Source: a virus
Strand: one strand, 5' to 3'
IMG/VR virus record: IMGVR_UViG_3300021091_000250
Location: 1 to 32,627 of that record
Length of the DNA: 32,627 nucleotides
The notes under the pieces are model-generated. The model saw nothing but the letters and a program-made list of their open reading frames with translations, was not told where the DNA came from and ran no database searches. Position numbers and translations under genes: made by a program. Below, piece after piece: positions 159 through 28,200 of the stretch; the first letter of the stretch is position 1; each line of letters opens with the position of its first letter.

Positions 159-1856
159 TTATTTTGTTTTTAGTTTTGCAACCTTTGTCTCAAGTTCTTC
201 AATACGTTTCAAGGCTTCCTGTAGTGCAGCAGTTAATACAGGAACAACGTGTCTGGGATCTACACCTTGAGGAAGAATATTTCCATCCTCGTCAACTTCA
301 TCTTTTGTTCCAGTTACAGCTAGAGGAACAACTTCTTGGAGTTCATGAGCAATAAAACCTTCAGCAGAGTCCCCATTAATAATCCAATCAAAGGTACATG
401 GTTTTAGACTTAAAACTCTATCAACAGAACCTGTAAGTGGTTGAATATTTGTTTTTAGCCTATAATCCGAAGTTCCAGTGTAACTAACTGTTGTAGAAGA
501 AGCGAGTTGAATACCACCAATTACAGTGTCAGCATCTTGAACTCTCACAAAAAATCCACCAGTTGCACTTGCGTCTCCAGAGAAATCAAGATCTAATAAT
601 ATGTTATTAGAACCAACACTAGTATCACTCGATTGAATAATTGCTGCCGGCACTCCTGAAGTTTGAGATCCAACAAGAACATGTAAATCTGAAGCGGAAG
701 GAAGAGTAACTCCTATTCCCAAATTTCCAGAAATATAAGCATGACCAGATACTTGAAGATTCTGAGATGCAGTTCCTGTTAAACTTGTTGTGTTAACAAG
801 TAAATATCCAGCAGAAACTGAGGCACCACCAGTTAAAGTCTCAAATCTCTTTGTACCATCAAAATAAAGTTCTGCACCACTTGAAGCACCAGTTGCAGCA
901 AATACAGTTCTTAAAGTTCCACTTGAATTATCTGCTTGAAGTAAAATAGAACCAGAAGTTCGAGTATTTCGAATATAAATGTCACCTGCAGTATTTTGTT
1001 GATCTAGATAAGTATGAGATCCATCATGATATATTCTAAAATCATAATCAGTTGATCCAACACCTGTTCCAACCTCAAGCCCTACATTATCTGGCAATTT
1101 TAAATCATTTCTAAACGTGGATACTCCAGCAACACTGAATTGATTTGCAAATAATGAATTAGTAGAAGTTGTAATACCACCTAAAGTTGATGGGCCAACA
1201 ACACTGAATTGATTTGCAAATAATGAATTAGTAGAAGTTGTAATACCACCTAAAGTTGATGGGCCAACAACACTGAATTGATTTGCAAATAATGAATTAG
1301 TAGAAGTTGTAATACCACCTAAAGTTGATGGGCCTACTACACTAACTTGATTTGCAAATAAAGTTCCCGTAGAAGTCGTTATACCACCTAAAGTTGATGG
1401 GCCAACAACACTTAGTTGTCTAGAAAATAGAGTGCCTGTTGATGTTGTAATTCCACCTAAAGTTGATGGGCCTACTACACCAAGTTGATTGACGAATAAA
1501 GTTCCCGTAGAAGTTGTAATACCACCTAAAGTTGATGGGCCTACTACACTAACTTGATTTGCAAATAATGAATTGGTAGAAGTTGTAATGCCACCTAAAG
1601 TTGATGGGCCTACTACACTAACTTGATTTGCAAATAAAGTACCCGTAAATGTAGAGATACCTATATGAGTAGAAACACCAGTAACATAAAGTTGCGTTGT
1701 AGAAGTTCCACTACCAGCAACTGTTAGAGTATATGTTGGATTCGTAATCGCTACACCAACTAACCCAGAAGATGTTGTAGTAATTATAGTTCCAATACCA
1801 GAACTATTAGGGCCCACTTCGAGCCCATTTTTGACTTTAAAGTTTTGATTAGCCAA
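159..1856 (-). CDS. Tail fibre-like protein with 23-residue repeats and S74 chaperone domain
   Basis: 565 residues. The N-terminus (MANQNFKVKNGLEVG) is of a type I associate with cyanophage fibre proteins. Residues of about 60-250 are eight tandem 23-residue units of the type STLGGITTSTNSLFANQ. A beta-rich middle follows. The last 103 residues begin at Ser463 in the motif SDYRLK and form a peptidase S74-type intramolecular chaperone (GFIAHELQEVVP, then a terminal coiled coil). In that family the domain trimerises the fibre and cuts itself off before the Ser. The start is TTG at 1856-1854: a GGGAG Shine-Dalgarno sits about 8 bases upstream, and the nearer ATG is in another frame that stops after four codons. 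A late-promoter-like box lies 28 bases upstream. The gene probably encodes a trimeric adsorption fibre; the receptor is unknown. Confidence 0.85.
   Translation of the reverse strand: MANQNFKVKNGLEVGPNSSGIGTIITTTSSGLVGVAITNPTYTLTVAGSGTSTTQLYVTGVSTHIGISTFTGTLFANQVSVVGPSTLGGITTSTNSLFANQVSVVGPSTLGGITTSTGTLFVNQLGVVGPSTLGGITTSTGTLFSRQLSVVGPSTLGGITTSTGTLFANQVSVVGPSTLGGITTSTNSLFANQFSVVGPSTLGGITTSTNSLFANQFSVVGPSTLGGITTSTNSLFANQFSVAGVSTFRNDLKLPDNVGLEVGTGVGSTDYDFRIYHDGSHTYLDQQNTAGDIYIRNTRTSGSILLQADNSSGTLRTVFAATGASSGAELYFDGTKRFETLTGGASVSAGYLLVNTTSLTGTASQNLQVSGHAYISGNLGIGVTLPSASDLHVLVGSQTSGVPAAIIQSSDTSVGSNNILLDLDFSGDASATGGFFVRVQDADTVIGGIQLASSTTVSYTGTSDYRLKTNIQPLTGSVDRVLSLKPCTFDWIINGDSAEGFIAHELQEVVPLAVTGTKDEVDEDGNILPQGVDPRHVVPVLTAALQEALKRIEELETKVAKLKTK
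1141..1692 (-). repeat. Tandem 69-bp repeat array, eight units, inside fibre gene
   Basis: Unit starts fall every 69 bases (1141, 1210, 1279, 1348, 1417, 1486, 1555, 1624). The first three units on the + strand are essentially identical at nucleotide level, and the others diverge progressively. Each unit encodes 23 residues. Length is always a multiple of three, so gain or loss of units would keep the frame. Confidence 0.9.
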
Positions 1857-1883
1857 GGTTCATTCTCCCTCTTGAGCTTTCAA

Positions 1884-1892
1884 GTATTTATG
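1884..1892 (-). promoter_or_regulatory. Late-promoter-like box CATAAATAC
   Basis: It matches the T4-type late element (TATAAATA; NATAAATA in cyanophages). It stands about 28 bases before the TTG start of the fibre gene ending at 159 and overlaps the TCA-TAA end of the preceding fibre gene. Confidence 0.6.
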
Positions 1893-4800
1893 AAGAACCA
1901 ATTCCAACAACGGACTCTAGATATTGAATTCTTTGAACTGCTTCTTGCAATGCAGCGGTAAGAACAACAACCATCTTAGCCGGATCAATCATTTGCGGAA
2001 TCATATTACCTTCTTCATCAACTGCATCTTTAGATCCAACGACTGCTTCTGGGAATACTTCTTGAACTTCATGAGCAATGAAACCTTCTGATCTGACTTG
2101 ACTTTCTTTCCAAGTAAACTCACATGGTTTGAACTGCATTATTCTTTCAATTCCATTTGTTGATGGAGTAATATCTTCCTTAAGTCGATAGTCAGAAGAT
2201 GTTGCATATAGAACAGCAGTTGCAGAAGAACCAGAAATCTGTCCTGTTGGGTTGGTATTTTGATCTCTGAATCTAATATAATGAGCAGAAGATGCAGCAC
2301 CAGACACATCAGCGTCACCAGAATAGAAGAGTTCTAAAAGAATTGCGTTGTGTGCTGCAGTTGCATTACTGTTTTGAATTCTAACTAATGGAGTTGTTCC
2401 CGAGTTGACTTCATGAACGTGCAATAATGTGCCTGGATTTGTAGTTCCGATGCCGACTAATCCATCACCCGTAATTCTCATTTCTTCAACATCAGCTGTT
2501 TCAAAAATAATTGGTTGAGATTGTTCAGTTATTAAATGGAGTGGGAGTGCATCCTCTTGAACTATAAAGAATCCATTTGTATCATGAGACTGAATGTAAG
2601 CATTTCGAGTTCCAGTAGATTCATGGAAAGAAATGTATGGATCACTTGCATTATCTTTAATTGCTAGATTTCCTGGAGTTGTAAATGTAGAGTTTGCAGT
2701 TGTATCACGAATTCTTATATTTCCTTGAACATCAAGTGCTGATCCAGGATTTGTGGTTCCTATACCAACAGATCCAATTCCAGTTATACGAACTTTTTCT
2801 GTTTGAGATGCTCCAATAGAAGAACCTTTTGTCCTGAAAGAAATATGACCAGAAAATGCTCCATCGTCAATAACTCTAATAGTTGCAGGAGCATTTGCAT
2901 ATCCTGCCTGAGAAGTTATATAGGTATCAAAATCTAAATCAACATATGATCCACCTCCACCAAGAGTATTATTTAATTTTAGTGCCGTTCCATTTGTTGT
3001 TATAACAACGTGAAGTTTTTCTATTGGATTTGTGGTTCCTATGCCGACAGAACCAGAAACATAAGCACCACCAGTAACTTGTAATCTTTGTGTTGAAGTT
3101 CCTGTTGAAGTTGCGGCACCAATTAATGTGTTTCCTGCAAAATAATTATTTGCTGCGGCAGTTGCAATATAAACACCATAAGGATTTGTGAGTCCTGTTG
3201 TAACATCATAAGATCCATAATACAAAGCACAAGTTCCAGAGACTGCTTGTGTAGTTGCTGCATCATTATCAATGTTTGCCCACACTGCAAAAATGTCAGT
3301 AGCCGTAGCAGTACCACCATCAATGTTAGTACGAGCTCTTATTCCTACCAAATCTCCTATTGTGCCTGAGGAGCCAGTGAGCGGTTGTGCAAGACTATAT
3401 GTTCCATAATAATTTGTAATTGTTGATGTTGCAGTTGATTCTGTATTGTTATAACATCCATAATAGCTAGTAACAGTTCCAGAAGTATGATTTAATATTG
3501 AATTATTATACGCGCCTGCGACGAAATCACTGTCACCATTGACTCGAAGAACATTGTAAATTCCAAATGCTTGGTGTTCATTTGCTGTTGATCCAGAAGT
3601 AACATCAGATTTTGTGTGAACCAACAATCCAGCTTGTTCTGCATCATTTGCTGGAGGCGTCTGAGCGCCATTCATGTGGGTGTCAATGACAACAGAGTAC
3701 GCACCTTCTGTTGAAGCATTATCAATAGTGTTAACTACATAAAGTTTTGTTCCATCATAGAATGAGTTTCCAATACCAATTACAGTTGATGTGGTTCCGA
3801 TGCCAACACCACCAGAAACATAAGCACCACCACTATGAACTTGCAAGGTTTGTGATGCAGTTCCTGTTGAAGTCGCAGTTCCAATAAGAACAGGATAAGA
3901 ACCAGTATGAGTTAGTGCAAGTCTATCAATAGCATTATTTGTTGCATTAGTCGTAAGTTGCAATGCGTATGGTGTTGTATTGTTTAATCTAACATTAAAA
4001 TTACCTCCATCTGCGGTAATATCCCACATTGGATTGTTAGTAATTCCTGTTTCTTGTAAGGAAATCTGCGGCGCTGCGCCACGAACTAATAAATCAGTAT
4101 CATCGATAAGTAATGCAGTGGATGCTGTACCAACAGCACCGATAATATGCAATTGAGTTTGTGGATTTGTGGTTCCTATGCCGACAGAACCACCAGCACT
4201 TACAACAACTGCTGAAGTTCCTGCTGCACCGACTTGTAATCTTCCTAGTGGATTTGTGGTTCCTATGCCGACAGAACCAGAGGCATTAACAACAAAAGGA
4301 GTTGCATCAGGGTTTGTTTCATCTTCTACTACAAGAGCATTACCAGAACCAAGTTGTGTAATTCTTAATGCATCAGAAGAACTATTAACTGATATGGTTG
4401 AAACACCAGAAACATTAAGTTGTTTAGAGAATAATGTGGTTCCTGTTACTGTAGTGATACCAGCGAAGGTAGAGACTCCAGAAACACTTAGTTGGTTGGT
4501 AAAGAGAGTTGATGTATTAGTTGTAATACCAGCGAAGGTAGAGACACCAGCAACACTTAGTTGGTTGATAAAGAGTGTTGATGTATTAGTTGTAATACCA
4601 GCGAAGGTAGAGACACCAGCAACACTTAACTGATTCGCAAAAAGAGTTGATGTATTAGTTGTAATACCAGCAAACGTTGATACACCAGAAACACTTAACT
4701 GATTCGCAAAGAGTGTTGATGTATTAGTTGTAATACCAGCGAAGGTAGAGACACCAGCAACACTTAGTTGGTTGGTAAAGAGAGTTGATGTATTAGTTGT

Positions 4801-5676
4801 AATACCAGCGAAGGTAGAGACTCCAGCAACACTTAACTGATTCGCAAAAAGAGTTGATTGGAATGTGCTAATACCCACATGAGTTGAGACACCAGCAACA
4901 CTTAGTTGGTTGGTAAAGAGAGTTGATGTATTAGTTGTAATACCAGCGAAGGTAGAGACTCCAGCAACACTTAACTGATTCGCAAAGAGTGTTGATGTAT
5001 TAGTTGTAATACCAGCGAAGGTAGAGACTCCAGTTACATTAAGATGTTGAGTTGTGGTAACACCAGAGACTTCTAAAGTCGTTAAAGTAGAGACATCAGT
5101 TACATTTAAGTTACGATTGACTTGAAGATCTCTAGTAACAGTAACGTCTTGTGGTGCTGTAAATTGGTTTGGAACGCTAAGTGTAGGTGTTGAACTTTCT
5201 CCAGTTCCATCAGTGACTGTGATTTGGTTTGATGTTCCAGTGATTGATTGGACATAATCACCAGTTGTGTCAGTTCCAAGAGAAACTGAATTTGGTTGAA
5301 TGGTTGCTGCTAAAGATACATTATCAGTTCCATCAAAGAAAATGGGAGAAGCAACAACATCACCAGTGATTTCAAAACTTCTAGAAGTTGCGAGTTTTGT
5401 TGCAGTGCTTGCAGTTCCAGTGATATTGGTTGCGGTGATAACTCCTGTAATAAGAGCATCACCAACAACATGAAGTCTTGATGTTGGATTTGTGGTTCCT
5501 ATGCCGACAGAACCACCAGCACTTACAACAACTGCTGAAGTTCCTGAATTGACTTGTAGAGTTCCTAGTGGATTTATGGTTCCTATGCCGACAGAGGTAT
5601 TAATCCCGAGACTTCTATCGGAATCATCAACTGTAATTAAAGATGCAAGTTGGGATAACTCTCTGTTGTTCGACAT
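1888..5676 (-). CDS. Long tail fibre-like protein with 23-residue repeats and S74 domain
   Basis: 1262 residues. The N-terminus (MSNNRELSQLASLITVDD) is followed by VGIGT-NP modules. Residues of about 210-420 are nine tandem units of the type STFAGITTNTSTLFANQ, then several beta-rich globular segments separated by 'GSVGIGTTNP' spacers. The last 102 residues start at Ser1161 (SDYRLK) and form an S74 chaperone domain closely similar to that of the neighbouring 565-residue fibre, including GFIAHEVQEVFPEAV and a final helix. A segment of about 80 residues (encoded by 2782-3049) recurs almost unchanged in the 1006-residue fibre gene. The start is ATG; the Shine-Dalgarno is weak. Probably a trimeric long or side tail fibre. 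Confidence 0.85.
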   Translation of the reverse strand: MSNNRELSQLASLITVDDSDRSLGINTSVGIGTINPLGTLQVNSGTSAVVVSAGGSVGIGTTNPTSRLHVVGDALITGVITATNITGTASTATKLATSRSFEITGDVVASPIFFDGTDNVSLAATIQPNSVSLGTDTTGDYVQSITGTSNQITVTDGTGESSTPTLSVPNQFTAPQDVTVTRDLQVNRNLNVTDVSTLTTLEVSGVTTTQHLNVTGVSTFAGITTNTSTLFANQLSVAGVSTFAGITTNTSTLFTNQLSVAGVSTHVGISTFQSTLFANQLSVAGVSTFAGITTNTSTLFTNQLSVAGVSTFAGITTNTSTLFANQLSVSGVSTFAGITTNTSTLFANQLSVAGVSTFAGITTNTSTLFINQLSVAGVSTFAGITTNTSTLFTNQLSVSGVSTFAGITTVTGTTLFSKQLNVSGVSTISVNSSSDALRITQLGSGNALVVEDETNPDATPFVVNASGSVGIGTTNPLGRLQVGAAGTSAVVVSAGGSVGIGTTNPQTQLHIIGAVGTASTALLIDDTDLLVRGAAPQISLQETGITNNPMWDITADGGNFNVRLNNTTPYALQLTTNATNNAIDRLALTHTGSYPVLIGTATSTGTASQTLQVHSGGAYVSGGVGIGTTSTVIGIGNSFYDGTKLYVVNTIDNASTEGAYSVVIDTHMNGAQTPPANDAEQAGLLVHTKSDVTSGSTANEHQAFGIYNVLRVNGDSDFVAGAYNNSILNHTSGTVTSYYGCYNNTESTATSTITNYYGTYSLAQPLTGSSGTIGDLVGIRARTNIDGGTATATDIFAVWANIDNDAATTQAVSGTCALYYGSYDVTTGLTNPYGVYIATAAANNYFAGNTLIGAATSTGTSTQRLQVTGGAYVSGSVGIGTTNPIEKLHVVITTNGTALKLNNTLGGGGSYVDLDFDTYITSQAGYANAPATIRVIDDGAFSGHISFRTKGSSIGASQTEKVRITGIGSVGIGTTNPGSALDVQGNIRIRDTTANSTFTTPGNLAIKDNASDPYISFHESTGTRNAYIQSHDTNGFFIVQEDALPLHLITEQSQPIIFETADVEEMRITGDGLVGIGTTNPGTLLHVHEVNSGTTPLVRIQNSNATAAHNAILLELFYSGDADVSGAASSAHYIRFRDQNTNPTGQISGSSATAVLYATSSDYRLKEDITPSTNGIERIMQFKPCEFTWKESQVRSEGFIAHEVQEVFPEAVVGSKDAVDEEGNMIPQMIDPAKMVVVLTAALQEAVQRIQYLESVVGIGSS
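2782..3049 (-). repeat. 268-bp block duplicated at 9381-9648
   Basis: It is collinear without gaps with 9381-9648 (constant offset 6599), with roughly ten mismatches by eye. It encodes the segment ending in GHISFRTKGSSIG-ASQTEKVRIT and starting at the TNGTALKLNNTLGGGG side. It joins two different fibre genes. Confidence 0.88.
4421..5044 (-). repeat. Tandem 69-bp repeat array, nine units, inside fibre gene
   Basis: Units start at 4421 (a 72-bp variant), then 4493, 4562, 4631, 4700, 4769, 4838, 4907 and 4976. Seven units encode the same core STFAGITTNTSTLF with one variable residue (A, T or I) before NQLSV. The unit at 4838 is a divergent insert (STHVGISTFQSTLF). Period and consensus match the array in the next fibre gene, so the two arrays are homologous. 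Confidence 0.9.
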
Positions 5677-5693
5677 TTAATTATAACTACTTT

Positions 5694-7784
5694 TTAGGTA
5701 TTTATCGATTCCAATTGAGCCTTAAGACTTTCAACTTCTGCAGAAAGTTCTTTGACTGCATTTACTAAAACTGGAATCAATGCAACGTATTCCATTGCAA
5801 GTTTAGATGGTTCATCTTCATGATCTGGAATTAAATCATTCGTATCATAAACAGATTCTGGAACAATTGTTTGAACTTGTTGAGCAATAAAACCAATTCG
5901 TTCTCGATCTGGTTCTCTCTTCATCGAATACCTAACTGGATTGATATTTTTAATTTCTTCTAATCCATAAGGAACTTCTCCAAGAATATTTTTCAGTCTT
6001 TCGTCGGAAGTTTGATCACCAACAACAGTTCCAGATGTTGTTCCTAAATGTGTAATTGTTCCAGATGTTCTTAAATCATTAGTATTATCCACCCAAAAAT
6101 AAATATTAGTACCATCTTGTTCTTCTAAAAAGAGAAAAGGTTGCGGATAAAGAATTCCCGAATGTTTAAAAGTTCCAAGAAAAGCCGATCTTGACACAGA
6201 AGACTGAGTAGCTGCATATCCAACGATTTGTATCATTGTATACTCACTGTTTGCCATTCCCCTTCCTTGTATTTCAATTCTACCGTCATTATTACTCACA
6301 ATTTTAAGTAGTTCATCTGGATTTCTGGTTCCTATGCCGACATTACCAGTTGGAAGTATGCACATCCTCTCTACTGCGTCAACATAAGAAGTTGAATTGC
6401 TAGTAGTTAAAAATCGGATACCAGCAGGGCCCTGATCGACAGCATTTGCTAAATTTAGAGAGTTATCATTATCACCTGTAGTATTTCCCTGCCAAATTGC
6501 CGCTTCTTCTAAACCACCGTCTTGTCTGAAAATAATAAATGGATTATCTCCTTCATTATTATTATCAGTATCTGCTTCAAGTATCAGTCTACAATCGCCA
6601 GATGTTCCAGATGAAATATGTAACTGTCCCTGTGGATTTGTGGTTCCTATGCCGACAGAACCAGAAAAATAACCACCACCAATAACTTGAAGTTTTTGTG
6701 ATGCTGTTCCTGTTGAGGTTGCTGTTCCAATTAAAAGACTTCCTCCACTTTTAAATACTAAAGAGGATGAAGTTGGAAGAGAACCACTAGGTCCACTTCT
6801 GAAATAAATGTCTCCATTATTTCTATGATCAAAGTATGCATTATTATCACCCCATCCAGTAATAGTAAGAGTTGTGGTAATGCCACCAGATGTTTGTAAT
6901 CCCCAAATTAATGCTGATGTAGAATCAAATCCAATATTATATGCATTTGAATTTTGTCCATCAAGTCTATGATTATAACTAGTTCCTACTCCAATATCAC
7001 CATAAACTTCTAACTTATTTGTTGGATTTGTGGTTCCTATGCCGACATTACCAGAAACATAAGCACCACCAGTCACTTGAAGTTTTTGTGATGCTGTTCC
7101 TGTTGAGGTTGCTGAACCAACTAAAACTTCCCCTCCATCTCTTAAAACTAACAGATGTGGATTTGTAGCTAAATTATTATCACTATCCACACCCCAACCA
7201 GTAGCTGAAACTGATAATCCAGCATACATCGATCCTGATGTGTTTCTATATTGAATCAAACTATTGTTAGCATTGGATCTATCAACTAAAATTACTTCTG
7301 GATCTGTCGAAATAACATGAAGTCTTGATGTTGGATTTATGGTTCCTATGCCGACATTACCAGTTGAAGTTATACGAACTCTTTCTGGACTACCAGTTCC
7401 AGCATGAAAAATAATATTATCACTTGTTCCTGATCTTATTCTTACATTATCAAAAGCATAAATTTCAGTATTTCTACCTTGAATCAGAGTTGTATCGAGA
7501 TTACCACCTACTCCTGGAATTGCACTTGTTGTTCCATATCCAATAAAATGTTCAGTATCTCCACCTAGTCTTAATCCACTAAAGAATGTGTTAGCAACTC
7601 CAATATTAGTTCCACTATAAACAACTCGAATTACTTCAGTTGATCCAGATCCAACTTCAAAATCACCTTCAACTTGAAGTTTGAATTGTGGATTTGTGGT
7701 TCCTATACCAATTCGATCATTCGCAGTATCTACGAACAAGTTATTTTGAGAAACTAAGTCACCTGTTTGTCTAGACTTTGCCAT
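5694..7784 (-). CDS. Tail fibre-like protein with divergent S74 chaperone domain
   Basis: 696 residues. The N-terminus (MAKSRQTGDLVSQNNLFVD) is followed by repeated 'VGIGTTNPxxxLxV' spacers that separate beta-rich segments. There is no 69-bp array. The C-terminal 104 residues begin at Ser593 (SDERLKNI), continue through RIGFIAQQVQTIVPESV and end in a heptad coiled coil. This is an S74-type intramolecular chaperone from a different sublineage than the two other S74 domains in the window. The ATG follows a late-promoter-like box by 20 bases; the Shine-Dalgarno is poor. Likely a trimeric fibre. The different chaperone implies a different fibre shape or history. Confidence 0.83.
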   Translation of the reverse strand: MAKSRQTGDLVSQNNLFVDTANDRIGIGTTNPQFKLQVEGDFEVGSGSTEVIRVVYSGTNIGVANTFFSGLRLGGDTEHFIGYGTTSAIPGVGGNLDTTLIQGRNTEIYAFDNVRIRSGTSDNIIFHAGTGSPERVRITSTGNVGIGTINPTSRLHVISTDPEVILVDRSNANNSLIQYRNTSGSMYAGLSVSATGWGVDSDNNLATNPHLLVLRDGGEVLVGSATSTGTASQKLQVTGGAYVSGNVGIGTTNPTNKLEVYGDIGVGTSYNHRLDGQNSNAYNIGFDSTSALIWGLQTSGGITTTLTITGWGDNNAYFDHRNNGDIYFRSGPSGSLPTSSSLVFKSGGSLLIGTATSTGTASQKLQVIGGGYFSGSVGIGTTNPQGQLHISSGTSGDCRLILEADTDNNNEGDNPFIIFRQDGGLEEAAIWQGNTTGDNDNSLNLANAVDQGPAGIRFLTTSNSTSYVDAVERMCILPTGNVGIGTRNPDELLKIVSNNDGRIEIQGRGMANSEYTMIQIVGYAATQSSVSRSAFLGTFKHSGILYPQPFLFLEEQDGTNIYFWVDNTNDLRTSGTITHLGTTSGTVVGDQTSDERLKNILGEVPYGLEEIKNINPVRYSMKREPDRERIGFIAQQVQTIVPESVYDTNDLIPDHEDEPSKLAMEYVALIPVLVNAVKELSAEVESLKAQLESINT
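5698..5706 (-). promoter_or_regulatory. Late-promoter-like box GATAAATAC
   Basis: T4-type late element about 22 bases before the ATG of the 1262-residue fibre gene. It lies within the last codons (Ser-Ile-Asn-Thr-stop) of the preceding gene. Confidence 0.6.
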
Positions 7785-18352: not shown

Positions 18353-19081
18353 TTATTGACTATTTATTTTTCTCCACAGAGAAGGATCCAAACGACTATA
18401 TTCGCATTTAATATAATCTTCTTTCAGAGTCAAAGTTATATCTCCACAAATCGAGATTCTTTGTCCCTTTCGTTGAACCATTTGCATTGTAGAATGCATC
18501 ATTGAACTTGGAAATAAAACCACAGTTCCTTCAATTGGGGTTACAGTATAGTTATTACAGTTATATCTATTATAACCCAAAATTAGATTATATTTACCAC
18601 TGTTACTAGTTTGAAACATAAACTCAGAGACTTCATTATTATTCTCCGATTGATGAAAGCAAAGTTTATCAGAAGTCTCATTACAATTTAGATAATAACA
18701 AAAAGATATATCACTACTATTGTGAGTATGAATTTTGATATTTGGAAGATCTTCCTTGTGAATGTTCAACCAAGATTTTGTAACATACACATTCATCAAA
18801 GACTCATTGACATTTAAAACTTTCAAATACTGTCTCACATTTTGATCTAAACACTTAAAAAATTCAGAATATTTTTGTTCATGATGTAAAAAATATCTCC
18901 CAGAGTTTTCTGGAGATTGCAATTCTTCTCTAGGAAGATCTTCAGCATAATGCCAATAATCAGAGAGTTCTTGTAGATATTTATCCTTAAATTCTTGATG
19001 ACAAGTTACTTCACCTCTATAGATTACAGTTGGAAAGATTTCATAAACTTCATGATTTAGATTCACCTTTGTGTCTTGCAT
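18353..19081 (-). CDS. 2-oxoglutarate/Fe(II)-dependent oxygenase-like protein
   Basis: 242 residues. It opens with a EIFPTVIYRGEV segment typical of the 2OG-Fe(II) oxygenase group common in cyanophages. SWLNIHKED and IHTHNSSDISFCYYL (His118/His120, Asp124) supply the first iron-ligand region. PIEGTVVLFPSSMMHSTM (His196) gives the distal His, and QRISI (Arg208) the likely 2-oxoglutarate-binding Arg. Such enzymes hydroxylate or oxidise a protein or small-molecule substrate; the substrate here is unknown. I chose ATG at 19081 because GGTGG lies 8 bases upstream. A GTG four codons earlier is less well placed. The gene overlaps the preceding structural gene by 32 bases, so the two are translated together in the tail-gene operon. 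Confidence 0.8.
   Translation of the reverse strand: MQDTKVNLNHEVYEIFPTVIYRGEVTCHQEFKDKYLQELSDYWHYAEDLPREELQSPENSGRYFLHHEQKYSEFFKCLDQNVRQYLKVLNVNESLMNVYVTKSWLNIHKEDLPNIKIHTHNSSDISFCYYLNCNETSDKLCFHQSENNNEVSEFMFQTSNSGKYNLILGYNRYNCNNYTVTPIEGTVVLFPSSMMHSTMQMVQRKGQRISICGDITLTLKEDYIKCEYSRLDPSLWRKINSQ
18360..18368 (-). promoter_or_regulatory. Late-promoter-like box AATAAATAG
   Basis: T4-type late element 19 bases before the ATG of the 478-residue gene, inside the last codons of the 2OG oxygenase gene. Confidence 0.5.
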
Positions 19082-20060
19082 AATCCCAACCACCTATAGC
19101 ATACTCCCTATTATCTCCTGGATAGTCATCTGGTGTCAAGCCTTTATATTCAACTTGTAATTGATCATGTGTTACTCTTTCAGCAAACACTGTGTAATGA
19201 CAATGAACTGAAGATCCAGATGCATTTCTAACTTTTATTTTTGTTCCCCACTCAACAATTTCTTCAACATAAAGTTCTTGATATCTTCCAATCGGAGTAA
19301 GATTCACAGTGATTGTTTCTGGCTTGCAAAGAGTTCTCCAGTAGTCAGGAAGTTCAATCGTATCAGAATCTTTCAATGTTCCACGAATATAAGCACCAAC
19401 TTCTGGCCCCTCTAAACAAATATATCTCAAACGATGATCTTCTTTTGTTGGATGAGGAATGTCAAATCCTTTTCCAGCAAGAGATAGTGCTTTTTGAGCG
19501 ATAGAATAAGTTGCAGAAAGTGTTGTGACTGCATTTACGACTTCTGCAGCAGTTAAAGTTCCAGCAACTGTTAGATTTGCGTTTTCAGCAGCAACACTCG
19601 CTTCTACTCTTGCACCTGCATCAGCCTTTGCACCAGTTTCTGCTTTTGCACCTGATTGACTCACCGTTCCAACATGAACCTCATTTGCAAAAAAGTTAAA
19701 AGTAGGTGTCAATATTGTCACACTTGCAGAATTCATCGTAATCCCAGAAGTCAAATTGCAGGTTATAAGATGTTGAAGTGCATTAACAGTCAATCCATTT
19801 CCAGGATAGGGAAGTGTTCCCAATCCATCAGCACTGATATTAAGTGCGTTACCACCAGGAACAGAAGTTGGTGATGGAACAATGTTTAAAAGTGCCGTCT
19901 GTCTTGCAGCAGTAAACACAGCAGGAGCAGGTTGCCCGACAAATATAGGCCCAGCAAGTAATCCTGTACCACCAGTAACACTTACAGTTTCTGTTGGTAG
20001 AACAAGTTGTTTACCTAATGTAAGACAATCGGTTACACCAAGATTTCCAAGGTTTGACAT
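19050..20060 (-). CDS. Virion protein with C-terminal CLEGPE domain
   Basis: 336 residues. Residues 1-130 are beta-rich and Gly/Pro/Thr-rich. Residues 134-162 are an Ala-rich repetitive stretch (AKAETGAKADAGARVEASV) likely to form a helical stalk. Residues 197-300 carry the pattern GFDIPHPTKEDHRLRYICLEGPEVGAYIRG, then IELPDYW and ITVNLTPIG. I recall this C-terminal domain (HP...CLEGPE..Y.RG) from structural proteins of marine phages and some large algal viruses; its function is not known to me. It follows the spike-like gene by four bases, with GGAG before the ATG, and is followed by the oxygenase. Likely part of the spike tip or baseplate. Confidence 0.72.
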   Translation of the reverse strand: MSNLGNLGVTDCLTLGKQLVLPTETVSVTGGTGLLAGPIFVGQPAPAVFTAARQTALLNIVPSPTSVPGGNALNISADGLGTLPYPGNGLTVNALQHLITCNLTSGITMNSASVTILTPTFNFFANEVHVGTVSQSGAKAETGAKADAGARVEASVAAENANLTVAGTLTAAEVVNAVTTLSATYSIAQKALSLAGKGFDIPHPTKEDHRLRYICLEGPEVGAYIRGTLKDSDTIELPDYWRTLCKPETITVNLTPIGRYQELYVEEIVEWGTKIKVRNASGSSVHCHYTVFAERVTHDQLQVEYKGLTPDDYPGDNREYAIGGWDYARHKGESKS

Positions 20061-24235: not shown

Positions 24236-25315
24236 TTACTTTGGAGATGCTAATTGGAGAACTGATAAGTAGTTAGGTTGGACAGAACCTCTACCTCCAG
24301 AAGGTGCTTGAGATCCTTGTGGTTGTTGTGATGGTTGTTGTGCAGAAGAAGGAACTGCAGCAACCTGTTGTTGAGTCGGTTGAGGTTTTAAAGCTTGTTG
24401 TTGAGATGGTTGTGGTTTTGGTTTTATTGGTTTACCAGACTGTATTTCTCTAATATAATTTGTAGGATCCAATAATGTGTTACCTTTATAAAGTTCAAAG
24501 TGAAGATGAGTGTTCCCTCCATCCTTCCCGAGAGAAACCAATCTACCTATTTTTTGTCCCGCAGAAACTTTATCTCCAGGCTTCAAAAAAGGAGTCATAT
24601 GAAGATATCTAGCATCATATCCATCATCTTGTCTTATCATAAGTCCAGACATATATTCACTACCTGCAAGATACTTATCACCAATAACAACACCACCCCT
24701 TACAGCAACAACAGGTATTCTTGGATCTGATTTTGGATCATAATTACTTTCAGTAATATCAATTCCCGCGTGATCTCTATCTCGTATTCCATCCCCATCA
24801 TCATCTCTTGGAGCACCAAAAACCTGGCCAGGTCCACCCTTAAAAGATCCTTTAGGAAGAGGATTATAATATACACCCTTATCAGTTAAAACTGCGGTTG
24901 CTGGAGCCCCTTCAGGGCCACCATCAGGAGATAAAACAGAAGGTAATCCTAGTGCAGCTCCCAATCCAGCAGCACCTAATGCAGTTCTTAAAGCAGATGG
25001 TTCGATACTTTCAAAAATATCTTCAAGATCTTTCATCATTTTTTGTCTTTCATCAATAAGAGCAACAATAGTTTGTTGATAAGTTGCATTTTCTTTTTTC
25101 AATCCCAACATTTCTTCCATAATTCCTGGAGGAATCATTTGTTCCGATTGTTTAACAGATAATGCTGATATTAACTCATTCAGTTTTTCATTATTTTTAT
25201 TTTCGGACTTAACATAATCTTTTGAAAATTTTCCAACCTGACGAATTGTTTTCCCCAAAACAGGAGTTAAACTATCAACTTTAGAACTTAAAACTTTAAC
25301 TTGTTCTACTGACAT
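24236..25315 (-). CDS. Virion M23-type metallopeptidase (peptidoglycan endopeptidase)
   Basis: 359 residues. Residues 1-105 are helical and partly coiled-coil; residues 111-130 are a small Ala/Gly-rich hydrophobic segment. Residues of about 150-288 are an M23/LytM domain: HAGID (His182, Asp186), YLHM (His239) and THLHFE (His270, His272), which together give the zinc ligands and catalytic His of the family. PGDKVSAGQKIGRL is the usual beta-hairpin. The tail is Pro/Gln-rich. Just before His182 is DDDGDGIRD, an EF-hand-like calcium loop. It probably cleaves cell-wall cross-links during infection from within the tail. It follows the tail-lysozyme gene by six bases, so the phage carries two candidate wall-degrading enzymes side by side. 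Confidence 0.85.
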   Translation of the reverse strand: MSVEQVKVLSSKVDSLTPVLGKTIRQVGKFSKDYVKSENKNNEKLNELISALSVKQSEQMIPPGIMEEMLGLKKENATYQQTIVALIDERQKMMKDLEDIFESIEPSALRTALGAAGLGAALGLPSVLSPDGGPEGAPATAVLTDKGVYYNPLPKGSFKGGPGQVFGAPRDDDGDGIRDRDHAGIDITESNYDPKSDPRIPVVAVRGGVVIGDKYLAGSEYMSGLMIRQDDGYDARYLHMTPFLKPGDKVSAGQKIGRLVSLGKDGGNTHLHFELYKGNTLLDPTNYIREIQSGKPIKPKPQPSQQQALKPQPTQQQVAAVPSSAQQPSQQPQGSQAPSGGRGSVQPNYLSVLQLASPK

Positions 25316-25321
25316 ATCTTA

Positions 25322-26593
25322 TTACCCCACTTGGATTCCCATTGAAAGAGCAGATATTGTAGATAATGGATTTCCAGAAAAAGGATCTCCTGTTGTTTGA
25401 GAGGAACCTCTCGTAGGATTAACTGGATTTTGTTGTGAAGTCAGCTCTGGAACAGATGCAATCATTCCCTGAGAAGTTTCTGCTGGGGGTTCTGTTACTT
25501 CAGAAGAAGATAGCTTGGATGGTTCAATTTGTGAAGATGCAACTTTAATAACATTTTCTGTTGGCTCACCTTCATACTTATTACTTTCAGAAGAAGATCC
25601 TGGAGCACTGGCAACACTAGAAGATCCTGGAGCACTGGCAACACTAGAAGATCCTGGAGCACGGGCAACATTAGAAGGTTTTGAAGAACTAGTACTACTA
25701 GAACTACTTACATTTCCACCATATCTTTTTAAAACATCTTGAGCATTTCTGAGTCTATTATCATCTTTAGCCTCACTTTCGCCAGGTCTTAAATATTGAG
25801 TTCTTACTAATTTAGTAGCTTCTTCTAATGTTTTAACAGATTGGAGTCTGCTTTTAGACAATCCTCCACTACCAGTACTCAATTCATGTTCAGTAAATTG
25901 AAGTTGAGCCTCTAAAGTTTCTGGATTTAATCCTTTTGACTCGGAAAATTTAACTAAAGCTGGATATCTAACTTCAGGATCCCATTGAGCAATACCTTTA
26001 TGTCCAATTGAATTAGTTGTTTTAGGATTTAAAGTTGAATTCTCTTGCAATAAATTTCCTACAATAGCAGCAGATTGTTCTTTACTATATCCTCTACTAA
26101 CAAAATAATTGAAAGCTTTTTCTGAACTTTGTGATCCACTAAGATCTCCACTAGTATCTCCATCACCACCTCCATCACCACCTCCATCACCACTCAAAAC
26201 ATTACCAATAATTGATGCAAGCCCACCAGCTGCTAATCCACCACCCAATAATGCGGACATACCACCCATACCTCCACCCGCGCCGGCGGCGCCAAGTCCA
26301 CCACCAGCAGCACCAATAACACCACCACCAATCTCTTCTTGTACTGTTTTACCCAATATCCCCTTTGTCTGTAATTCTTGCCCCTGAGTCAACGATGTAA
26401 GAAGCGTATTCTCTTGTTTTTGCCCACTAGAAACAATCGATGTCATCATTCCTAGTTCTTGGCTCAATCTCATGATCAGAGACGTTAATCCCATAAAACT
26501 ATTCGACAAATTAGCATCAGACTGATCCCTCAGACGATTCTCAGTCTGAACTTGATTCTGGAGAGCAAAGAAAGCAGAGGGATCAATTGCCAT
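25322..26593 (-). CDS. Tail-associated protein with phage tail lysozyme domain
   Basis: 423 residues. Residues 1-85 are helical. Residues 88-150 are a Gly/Ala-rich segment, then a Gly/Asp-rich linker. Residues of about 155-245 match the phage tail lysozyme type: EKAFNYFVSRGYSKEQ, AAIVGNLLQENSTLNP with Glu184 as the likely catalytic acid, and GIAQWDPE. The C-terminal third is low-complexity Ser/Pro, with three copies of APGSSSVAS-type repeats. The ATG overlaps the gp51 stop (TAATG). It probably cuts glycan strands, complementing the adjacent M23 peptidase. Its place after gp26/gp51 corresponds to the T4 hub region. Confidence 0.78.
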   Translation of the reverse strand: MAIDPSAFFALQNQVQTENRLRDQSDANLSNSFMGLTSLIMRLSQELGMMTSIVSSGQKQENTLLTSLTQGQELQTKGILGKTVQEEIGGGVIGAAGGGLGAAGAGGGMGGMSALLGGGLAAGGLASIIGNVLSGDGGGDGGGDGDTSGDLSGSQSSEKAFNYFVSRGYSKEQSAAIVGNLLQENSTLNPKTTNSIGHKGIAQWDPEVRYPALVKFSESKGLNPETLEAQLQFTEHELSTGSGGLSKSRLQSVKTLEEATKLVRTQYLRPGESEAKDDNRLRNAQDVLKRYGGNVSSSSSTSSSKPSNVARAPGSSSVASAPGSSSVASAPGSSSESNKYEGEPTENVIKVASSQIEPSKLSSSEVTEPPAETSQGMIASVPELTSQQNPVNPTRGSSQTTGDPFSGNPLSTISALSMGIQVG

Positions 26594-26766
26594 TACTGTT
26601 GTTTTTGTTTTTGTTTAAGTTCTTCGAGATATTCTTTCAACAACTCAAGATAGATTTCTCTTTCCCAAGGTAACATGTTTTCAACTTCTGTTAATGAATA
26701 TTTATGGTATTGCATGAGACTGAAGTTGACTCGATAGTAATTTTCTAAAGAATCTCTTGCAATACT
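26593..26766 (-). CDS. 51: gp51-like baseplate hub assembly protein, probably made by -1 frameshift from gp26
   Basis: The frame open after the gp26 stop encodes 57 residues: SIARDSLENYYRVNF, then SLMQYHKYSLTEVENMLPWER, ending in a charged helix with KQKQKQQ. YHKYSLTEVENMLPWER matches the gp51 type found in cyanophages. The only ATG (26715) would give just 40 residues and cut off the conserved-looking YYRVNF part. No ATG, GTG or TTG lies between the upstream TGA and 26715 in this frame. The -1 frame of gp26 enters it exactly, through T_TTT_TTC, so the product is probably a gp26-gp51 fusion of about 298 residues. In T4, genes 26 and 51 are also adjacent and act in hub assembly. Confidence 0.75.
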   Translation of the reverse strand, partial: SIARDSLENYYRVNFSLMQYHKYSLTEVENMLPWEREIYLELLKEYLEELKQKQKQQ

Positions 26767-27488
26767 TAGACGAAAAAACTTTGCAAACCCTCCAGAACGA
26801 TTGGATTTTCTTTTTCAGTAACTGGATTGACAACTACAGTTTCATAACGAAGTTTGGGCATCGTTTTGAAAAACTTTTCAATCCCCTTATATTGACGTGA
26901 ATTAAGAGTCTCTAACCAATCAATAATTTCTTGTTCCGTACAATCCGATCCTGCCCAACACTCTTCATCATCATAAACCATATCTACACATGATGCAACG
27001 ATCTTATAGGAGAGATCTAGAATATCTTGTCTACTTTGAGGATTAAAGTTTTCTTTAATGAATTGATCATAAGAAGGATACTTCATTCTCACAGTCAACT
27101 TATCTGTCAATTGAATATCAGAAGTATGTTCTGGATCTTTTTGAACTTCAATCTCATCAATATAAATGGTAAGAGGAACTTCAGTGACTCCATCATCCCC
27201 ACAGGTAATTACAAGTTCAATTGCTTCTCCAATTGACTTTCCACGAATGTTCAAAAACAGATATTCAATATCAAAAATAGGAAGATCTCTAACTTCAATT
27301 CCTTTAGTAAGGATACAAGCTTCCAATACATCAAAAAGTGCATTGTTAATTTGAGTAATATCTTCAGACTCCATTGCTAGAAGAAGAATCTTCTCTTCTT
27401 TTACAAAGAATGGGCGATACTTTATTTTTTTATTTGTCGAAGGCAAAACCAATTCATAGGTTGGTGCTGTAACTACAGGTAATGGCAT
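26766..27488 (-). CDS. 26: Baseplate hub assembly protein gp26
   Basis: 240 residues (T4 gp26 is 208). The N-terminus (MPLPVVTAPTYELVLPSTNKKIKYRPFFVKEEKILLLAME) followed by LFDVLEACI, and VRMKYPSYDQFIKEN in the middle, is typical of gp26-like proteins, which share features with tail assembly chaperones. The end (YETVVVNPVTEKENPIVLEGLQSFFV) holds the slippery codons. The gene starts 10 bases after the tail-tube-like gene. It probably works as a chaperone in hub or tail assembly, with a minority read-through product carrying gp51; that ratio is inferred from analogous systems such as lambda G/GT. Confidence 0.82.
   Translation of the reverse strand: MPLPVVTAPTYELVLPSTNKKIKYRPFFVKEEKILLLAMESEDITQINNALFDVLEACILTKGIEVRDLPIFDIEYLFLNIRGKSIGEAIELVITCGDDGVTEVPLTIYIDEIEVQKDPEHTSDIQLTDKLTVRMKYPSYDQFIKENFNPQSRQDILDLSYKIVASCVDMVYDDEECWAGSDCTEQEIIDWLETLNSRQYKGIEKFFKTMPKLRYETVVVNPVTEKENPIVLEGLQSFFV
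26772..26778 (-). promoter_or_regulatory. Candidate -1 ribosomal frameshift site T_TTT_TTC
   Basis: On the minus strand the last gp26 codons are AGT-TTT-TTC-GTC-TAA. TTTTTTC is in the correct phase for X_XXY_YYZ slippage. GGAGGG at 26793-26788, nine bases upstream, could act as a stimulating internal Shine-Dalgarno, as in E. coli dnaX. Confidence 0.72.
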
Positions 27489-27498
27489 AGTAAATTAA

Positions 27499-28200
27499 TC
27501 AAATATTTGTTGTATTTCTAGTTATATATCTGAGGTAAGTCATTGTAACATTTAAAGTCAAAATACTAGCTTGCCCATATTGAACAGGCATTTTGGAAAT
27601 ATTAATGGGAAATGCTTCCATGAATTCATATGTTAAATATGAACTTTTAGTTTTTGATGAGCCAGTATATCCAACATTTTTTTCAAATTTAGTTAGAGCG
27701 AAATTCATTCTATAAGTATCTGGATATCTTAATCTATTGATATTACTCTTACCTAAAGCAGTATTTACATTTTGTCCTGTAGAAGAACTTTTGACATTTC
27801 CATTTGCAGAAAACAATGGATTAATGTAGTTAATCCATTCTTCAAAAAATCGAATAATTTTATGATCTGCATCAACATAAAAACTTAAACCAATTGTATT
27901 GTTGTCCCCATAGACTCTTGCTCTTGGAAAGTTTTCAATCATTCCCTGATAATCACCTATGGCAGGGAAGATTTGTAATCCAGATCCAGGTAATGAAGTT
28001 GCATTACAAAACAACTCCATTTTTTCAAAAAATTTCAATCCATCAGCAGTTGATTTCAATCCAGCAGAACTTAAGTAACTTTGCAATCCAGTTGGAGGTT
28101 GCCCAAAAGTAACTTTGAACTGATTGTTCATTGATACTTTCGAGAAAGCACCTTTGATGGATTCTATCCCATATTTTAACTTGGGAACGTTTACCGCCAT
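27499..28200 (-). CDS. Tail-tube-like protein, probably tube initiator (gp54/gp19-like)
   Basis: 233 residues. The pattern of the tube fold is visible: NNQFKVTFGQPP near the start, ELFCNATSLPGSGLQIFP, FPRARVYGDNNTIGLSFYVDADHKIIRFFEEWINYINP, and a closing beta part (AFPINISKMPVQYGQASILTLNVTMTYLRY). T4 gp19 and gp54 share this fold. Lying beside hub genes, and with a gp48-like gene in the divergent operon, it more likely plays the gp54-type tube initiator role than the main tube, but a tube-like paralogue of other function is possible. The start is ATG at 28200. A TATACATA box (28234-28227), one change from the late consensus, lies upstream. Confidence 0.7.
   Translation of the reverse strand: MAVNVPKLKYGIESIKGAFSKVSMNNQFKVTFGQPPTGLQSYLSSAGLKSTADGLKFFEKMELFCNATSLPGSGLQIFPAIGDYQGMIENFPRARVYGDNNTIGLSFYVDADHKIIRFFEEWINYINPLFSANGNVKSSSTGQNVNTALGKSNINRLRYPDTYRMNFALTKFEKNVGYTGSSKTKSSYLTYEFMEAFPINISKMPVQYGQASILTLNVTMTYLRYITRNTTNI

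Follow-up and report, generated by a model that had tools for sequence, protein, structure and literature searches.

Gene content and anatomy of the gp26/gp51 locus

The analysed stretch of DNA, hereafter the window, comprises 32,627 nt (positions 1 to 32,627 of IMG/VR record IMGVR_UViG_3300021091_000250). Judged by the PHROG and Pfam families that its proteins match (tail fibre-like proteins, baseplate hub, DNA end protector, head closure, tail tube cap and single-strand DNA binding protein), it represents the structural region of a T4-like virus of the cyanophage type. Among annotated records Synechococcus phage DSL-LC02 comes closest, its gp26 being 70% identical. Neither an Rfam family nor a tRNA was found in the window. 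The features of the locus are as follows.

27499–28200, minus strand: tail tube-like protein, adjoining gp26 upstream (PF23849 Phage_TTP_2, E 1.8e-14; PHROG_45 tail tube, E 1.6e-25)
26766–27488, minus strand: gp26, short form of a putative tail assembly chaperone (TAC-N), 240 aa, ending ...LEGLQSFFV and stop (PF12322 T4_baseplate, E 6.8e-65; PHROG_150, E 7.5e-69)
26788–26793, minus strand: internal Shine-Dalgarno-like GGAGGG, 9 nt 5' of the slippery heptamer
26772–26778, minus strand: slippery heptamer T TTT TTC, in X XXY YYZ phase relative to the gp26 0 frame
26766–26768, minus strand: TAA stop of the gp26 0 frame, from the sequence
26707–26765, minus strand: predicted stimulatory hairpin, starting 6 nt past the heptamer, from folding
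26593–26772, minus strand: gp51 portion in the -1 frame, RLSIARD...KQKQQ and stop, 59 aa, C-terminal extension of the putative long form (TAC-NC, 298 aa) (PHROG_634, E 1.9e-25; PHROG_150 positions 236-278; dN/dS)
26713–26715, minus strand: internal ATG, the gp51 start for usual gene callers, overlapping the 3' arm of the hairpin
25322–26593, minus strand: 423-aa protein with a phage lysozyme domain, adjoining gp51 downstream (PF18013, E 6e-27)

On the minus strand gp26 ends ...CTG GAG GGT TTG CAA AGT TTT TTC GTC TAA. TTTTTTC is thus found in the phase for -1 slippage where the first-pass annotation, made from the letters of the window alone, had placed it, and GGAGGG (26793–26788) lies ahead of it with the nine-base spacing given there. 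The -1 frame runs straight into gp51, as also claimed: it is open from the slip site to a TAA at 26595–26593, 59 codons past the slip, and encodes RLSIARDSLENYYRVNFSLMQYHKYSLTEVENMLPWEREIYLELLKEYLEELKQKQKQQ, so that the fused gp26-gp51 product has 298 residues, in agreement with the earlier estimate. ATG, GTG and TTG are absent from this frame ahead of the internal ATG (26715–26713), and no Shine-Dalgarno match precedes that ATG. The earlier assertion that gp51 has no start before its internal ATG holds for these three codons, but what supports it is the codon content, not a stop close upstream, the -1 frame being open in that direction as far as 26814.

The two reading frames are flanked upstream by the tail tube-like gene and downstream by the 423-aa lysozyme protein, which is a candidate tape measure only; in phage HTVC008M the gene order is tube initiator, gp26, gp51, one ORF and "putative tail tape measure", the annotated tape measure thus lying two genes downstream. 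The 423-aa protein has a PHROG tape-measure match, mostly across the lysozyme domain, and is a possible tape-measure/hub protein. It contains a short tandem repeat (25515–25671) of about three copies of VASAPGSSS-type units. The next gene (24236–25315) encodes a 359-aa protein with an M23 peptidase domain, and in many relatives a single large protein of some 600-1000 aa stands in for both, under annotations such as endolysin, internal virion protein or hypothetical protein; the two genes may represent a split tape-measure/hub protein. Elsewhere in the window, three large consecutive proteins (159–7784), each carrying a Peptidase_S74 (endosialidase chaperone) domain towards its end, are probably tail fibres or spikes, and a 2OG-Fe(II) oxygenase-like gene shares 44 bases with the ORF before it (18353–19093 and 19050–20060).

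Conservation of the slippery heptamer

The junction was compared across 202 loci from IMG/VR and GenBank, dereplicated to 87 that differ by at least 10% of their bases. The loci were fetched with peptide patterns located upstream of the junction, and the fetch was therefore made without selection for the slip site. A T-run heptamer (TTTTTTC, TTTTTTT or TTTTTTA) in -1 slippage phase near the gp26 stop was present in 84 of the 87 junctions, in phages of Synechococcus, Prochlorococcus, Pelagibacter, Vibrio, Pseudomonas, Stenotrophomonas, Xanthomonas, Aeromonas, Citrobacter and Rhizobium. The three junctions without it were those of T4 gp26, where its absence was expected, Klebsiella phage May (Ackermannviridae) and Vibrio phage D509. 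Apart from one outlier, the -1 frame of the relatives stays open for 53-70 codons; their +1 frame is closed within 27 codons. The alignment that the first-pass annotation had proposed as a check thus came out in its favour.

Klebsiella phage May (L073, about 3225–3241) and Vibrio phage D509 (L085, about 2207–2223) have a gp51-like -1 frame and no canonical heptamer, their gp26 genes having only ATTTTC and CTTTTC, respectively, ahead of the stop; perhaps single-tRNA slippage or another mechanism operates there. The unannotated record of Pseudoalteromonas phage vB_Psh_XG4 (L090) has a gp26 that ends CGT TTT TTA GTA TAA, i.e. with the TTTTTTA variant, and a gp51 in the -1 frame.

Codon choice and coding selection

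Codon usage at the junction is biased. The first Phe codon of the heptamer is TTT in 83 of 83 relatives (background 67%) and the second is TTC in 71 of 83 (background 33%), while the codon preceding the Phe pair has T as its third base in all 83, though it may encode Ser, Asp, Asn, Ala or Arg. In the EG motif, from which GGAGGG arises, Glu is encoded by GAG in 44 of 59 cases, compared with 28% elsewhere in gp26. These counts come from related sequences, which are not independent events, and do not translate into probabilities. GGAGGG or GAGGG occurs at the same 9-nt spacing in 44 of 83 relatives, and 25 others show a shorter purine match at a distance of 7-9 nt.

Selection on the extension was assessed from 32 disjoint pairs of sequences. 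For codons 2-21 past the slip, dN/dS was 0.127 in the -1 frame, compared with 1.76 and 1.92 in the other two frames, and for codons 22-45 it was 0.063 in the -1 frame. Since codons 2-21 precede the internal ATG and are under purifying selection, this stretch is evidently translated in the -1 frame.

RNA structure downstream of the slip site

A hairpin that the first-pass annotation did not contain was found downstream of the slip site. Its outer stem, 8 perfect base pairs beginning 6 nt 3' of the heptamer, is formed by GUAUUGCA (26765–26758) paired with UGCAAUAC (26714–26707), and an inner stem continues it. The predicted minimum free energy is -16.1 kcal/mol (z -4.46), a stability equalled in none of 200 shuffled sequences, and the 60 nt that follow showed no structure (z 0.01). 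An identical outer stem is present in L002, L003 and L089. In the relatives as a whole the downstream RNA has a mean z of -1.44, compared with about -0.2 in flanking controls; other clades have different hairpins at a similar distance, in several clades the hairpin is weak or no convincing one is present, and the hairpin of the window is clade-specific. GGAGGG, heptamer and hairpin are present at the spacing proper to dnaX-like signals, and the first and last of these would have a stimulatory role.

The related clade L034-L051 forms a comparable stem from UACUGCA and UGCAGUA. Compared with the window (26765–26707), its 5' arm has moved by 2 nt while its 3' arm still lies within the conserved MQY codons, as though the structure had been built anew.

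Homology to gp26 and gp51 of T4

The -1 extension is assigned to PHROG_634 ("baseplate hub assembly catalyst"). It has a further match to PHROG_150, at positions 236-278, immediately past the part covered by gp26. PHROG_150 spans the gp26 part and the extension, which implies that some of its members carry both in one chain. T4 gp51 is such a case: it has 249 residues, with PF12322 over residues 1-201 followed by the gp51 tail. PF12322 and PHROG_150 are matched by gp26 of the window and of T4, and PHROG_634 by the window extension and the tail of T4 gp51, with an alignment that is continuous through the junction; T4 gp26 terminates at the FF position that corresponds to the end of the short form in the window. 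In T4 the short and long forms are two genes on opposite strands, and the same two-gene state is found in Aeromonas phage ZHF, whose gp51 is a gp26 domain plus gp51 tail in one open frame. T4 gp51 hence is the same fusion in a single gene beside a short gp26, which makes gp26 and gp26-gp51 the probable short and long tail assembly chaperones. From this homology, the short/long organisation and the gene order, a chaperone role is the likely one for the two products in the window. The G/GT-like pair proposed in the first-pass annotation is supported by the T4 arrangement and by the location past a tail tube-like gene. Its addition that the pair serves the hub repeats the traditional T4 label, and tail assembly chaperone is the better name.

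An AlphaFold model of gp26 built with an alignment had a pLDDT of 86.2 (34.5 without alignment). Searched against the PDB, the model gave no significant fold match; the highest listed probability, 0.66, went to 2ob9_B, the tail assembly chaperone of HK97 (2.4 A over 60 columns), although its E value was 1.8. A gp26 sequence profile searched against the PDB gave weak, irrelevant matches only. Among predicted viral structures the model matched baseplate hub subunits of T4-like phages.

It could be argued that the frameshift is real and that its products are hub structural or assembly proteins in the T4 sense, not chaperones of the G/GT type. The PHROG and Pfam families are named "baseplate hub" and "base plate protein", gp26 and gp51 of T4 are classically tied to hub assembly (PMC3004832), and the structural match to the HK97 chaperone is non-significant. 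Against this stand the short/long pairing of the gp26 forms, the location past the tail tube-like gene, and the tail assembly chaperone genes of T4-like phages already identified in print (Vladimirov et al. 2022, as cited in later papers), and we regard hub proteins as an unlikely identity for the pair.

gp51 as a separate gene

GenBank and RefSeq annotate a stand-alone gp51, and a separate small protein could in principle be started at the internal ATG, at a rare ATT-type codon or by re-initiation after the gp26 stop. In P-SSM2 the annotated gp51 start directly follows the gp26 stop, and several clades have an ATG 2-4 codons past the slip, where re-initiation may yield a stand-alone gp51. However, the annotated gp51 has 30 aa in P-HM2, 40 in DSL-LC02 and 45 in S-RIM2 and is missing from ACG-2014b and d, lengths that vary because the start is not conserved. 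No ATG, GTG or TTG occurs through codon 12 in 43 of 82 loci, gp51 of L062 and L068 is entirely without Met, and only 2 of 82 loci combine a start codon close to the slip with at least 4 nt of Shine-Dalgarno match. GGAGGG is itself more than 20 nt away from candidate gp51 starts, the sequence ahead of the ATG is kept by selection, and the codon bias of the heptamer would be left unexplained by a separate gp51. A stand-alone gp51 was therefore rejected, on account of the non-conserved start, the scarcity of nearby Shine-Dalgarno matches and the selection ahead of the ATG; its probability is very small, and we do not think that the internal ATG is the main start of gp51.

That the usual short gp51 gene call is wrong, as the first-pass annotation suspected, follows from the very probable frameshift. 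None of the frameshift-type loci combined the lack of a slippery site with a good gp51 start and Shine-Dalgarno sequence. T4 is without the slip site, but its gp51 is a full-length fused gene.

Specificity of the signal

The window contains GGAGGG-N9-TTTTTTC a single time, and none of its 100 shuffled versions had the pattern. Broadly similar heptamers are found at about 40 of 10,096 in-frame positions of the window's genes; among these, only the gp26 site and an overlapping GGGTTTG at the same gene end lie within 50 nt of the end of their own gene. A wide alignment of gp26 (A1) held no stretch conserved enough for a search pattern. IMG/VR was scanned with the DNA pattern GGAGGG-N9-TTTTTTC-N3-TAR-N3-TNG, and each locus was checked by profile HMM for gp26 in the upstream ORF and gp51 in the -1 frame. 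The scan returned at least 80 loci, and 80 of the 80 matches listed were gp26/gp51 junctions, in a scan that was less than fully blind, as the last part of the pattern was derived from the window. That the junction is a sequencing error, a pseudogene or a chance T run has next to no likelihood and was rejected: indel errors are common in homopolymers, but the same arrangement is present in isolate genomes and in metagenome contigs of many projects, the heptamer is kept in nearly all junctions, and the gp51 frame is under strong purifying selection.

Discussion

The anatomy of the sequence, its conservation, the coding selection in the -1 frame and the homology to the one-gene fusion of T4 are observed at this locus. 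A programmed -1 frameshift at the end of gp26, giving a short and a long tail assembly chaperone, is very probable on these data; the frameshift called in the first-pass annotation is supported by the heptamer, its codon bias, the -1-frame selection, the downstream structure and the pattern scan, and the case for it is stronger than that annotation had made it.

Genes 26 and 51 would then form one coding unit. Most ribosomes would terminate at the gp26 stop and release the short chaperone of 240 residues, while a minority would pause at the gp26 end, with GGAGGG paired to 16S rRNA behind and the hairpin ahead. The paused ribosomes would slip back one base on U UUU UUC and read the -1 frame into gp51, yielding the long chaperone of 298 residues. 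By analogy with lambda G/GT and T4 gp26/gp51, both forms may cooperate when the tail tube is assembled around the tape measure or hub.

Frameshifted tail assembly chaperone genes were reportedly described in 2004 by Xu, Hendrix and Duda, in lambda G/GT and more widely. Lambda G/GT resembles the window in having a short protein and a -1 extended form, but its slippery heptamer is a different one, and it was not found as a sequence relative in any search made here; set against it, the window site is flanked by an internal Shine-Dalgarno sequence and a hairpin. Escherichia coli dnaX has an internal Shine-Dalgarno sequence about 10 nt before the -1 heptamer and a downstream hairpin, a three-part signal shared with the window. 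The slip in dnaX, on AAAAAAG, gives the shorter product, whereas that on UUUUUUC in the window would lengthen the protein.

The tail assembly chaperone genes of T4-like phages were identified by Vladimirov, Gautam and Davidson (2022, Virology 566:9-15; cited in PMC12846349 and PMC10885494), and the title of their paper favours a mechanism different from frameshifting. The PRFect paper (PMC10885494) refers to that work for some T4-like phages with one short and one fused long gene, and the Adele paper (PMC12846349) for poly-T slippery sequences in T4-like TAC-N genes. As in the window, the T4-like chaperones have a short and a long form with a common N-terminal domain, and the homology runs via PF12322, PHROG_150 and PHROG_634; T4 uses two separate genes on opposite strands, whereas the window has one gene and a probable -1 frameshift. 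The chaperone locus of Vandenendeviridae and Andersonviridae is described in PMC12846349 as having a conserved stop-free -1 frame and an invariant GTTTTT at the TAC-N end; its open -1 frame is like that of the window, but the families differ and the poly-T motif is shorter. In the literature searched, no paper describing a gp26-gp51 frameshift in cyanophages was found. Identification of the T4-like chaperones and poly-T slippage in their genes are both prior art, and that the window is a further case of a known phage trick is well supported.

On balance we favour, with some reserve, the broader proposal that T4-related phages other than the T4 subfamily make their long chaperone by the UUUUUUC frameshift as the ancestral and near-universal route, many lineages combining the heptamer with an internal Shine-Dalgarno sequence and some also with a hairpin, in a three-part signal as in dnaX. 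The two-gene state of T4 would then be a derived replacement, and the "hub assembly catalyst" gp51 annotated in hundreds of genomes would not exist as a protein of its own.

In the frameshift-type records inspected, gp51 is either absent or annotated as a separate gene of about 30-60 codons with varying starts, and in none is it joined to gp26. The reading proposed here would correct this systematic error, by which gp51 has been miscalled with unstable starts, or missed, in many cyanophage records, and it provides a simple sequence signature by which the tail chaperone locus can be recognised in metagenomes. It also offers a test case in which one short/long pair is made either by frameshifting or by two genes, and the chaperone locus points to the next gene or genes as tape-measure candidates of cyanophages.
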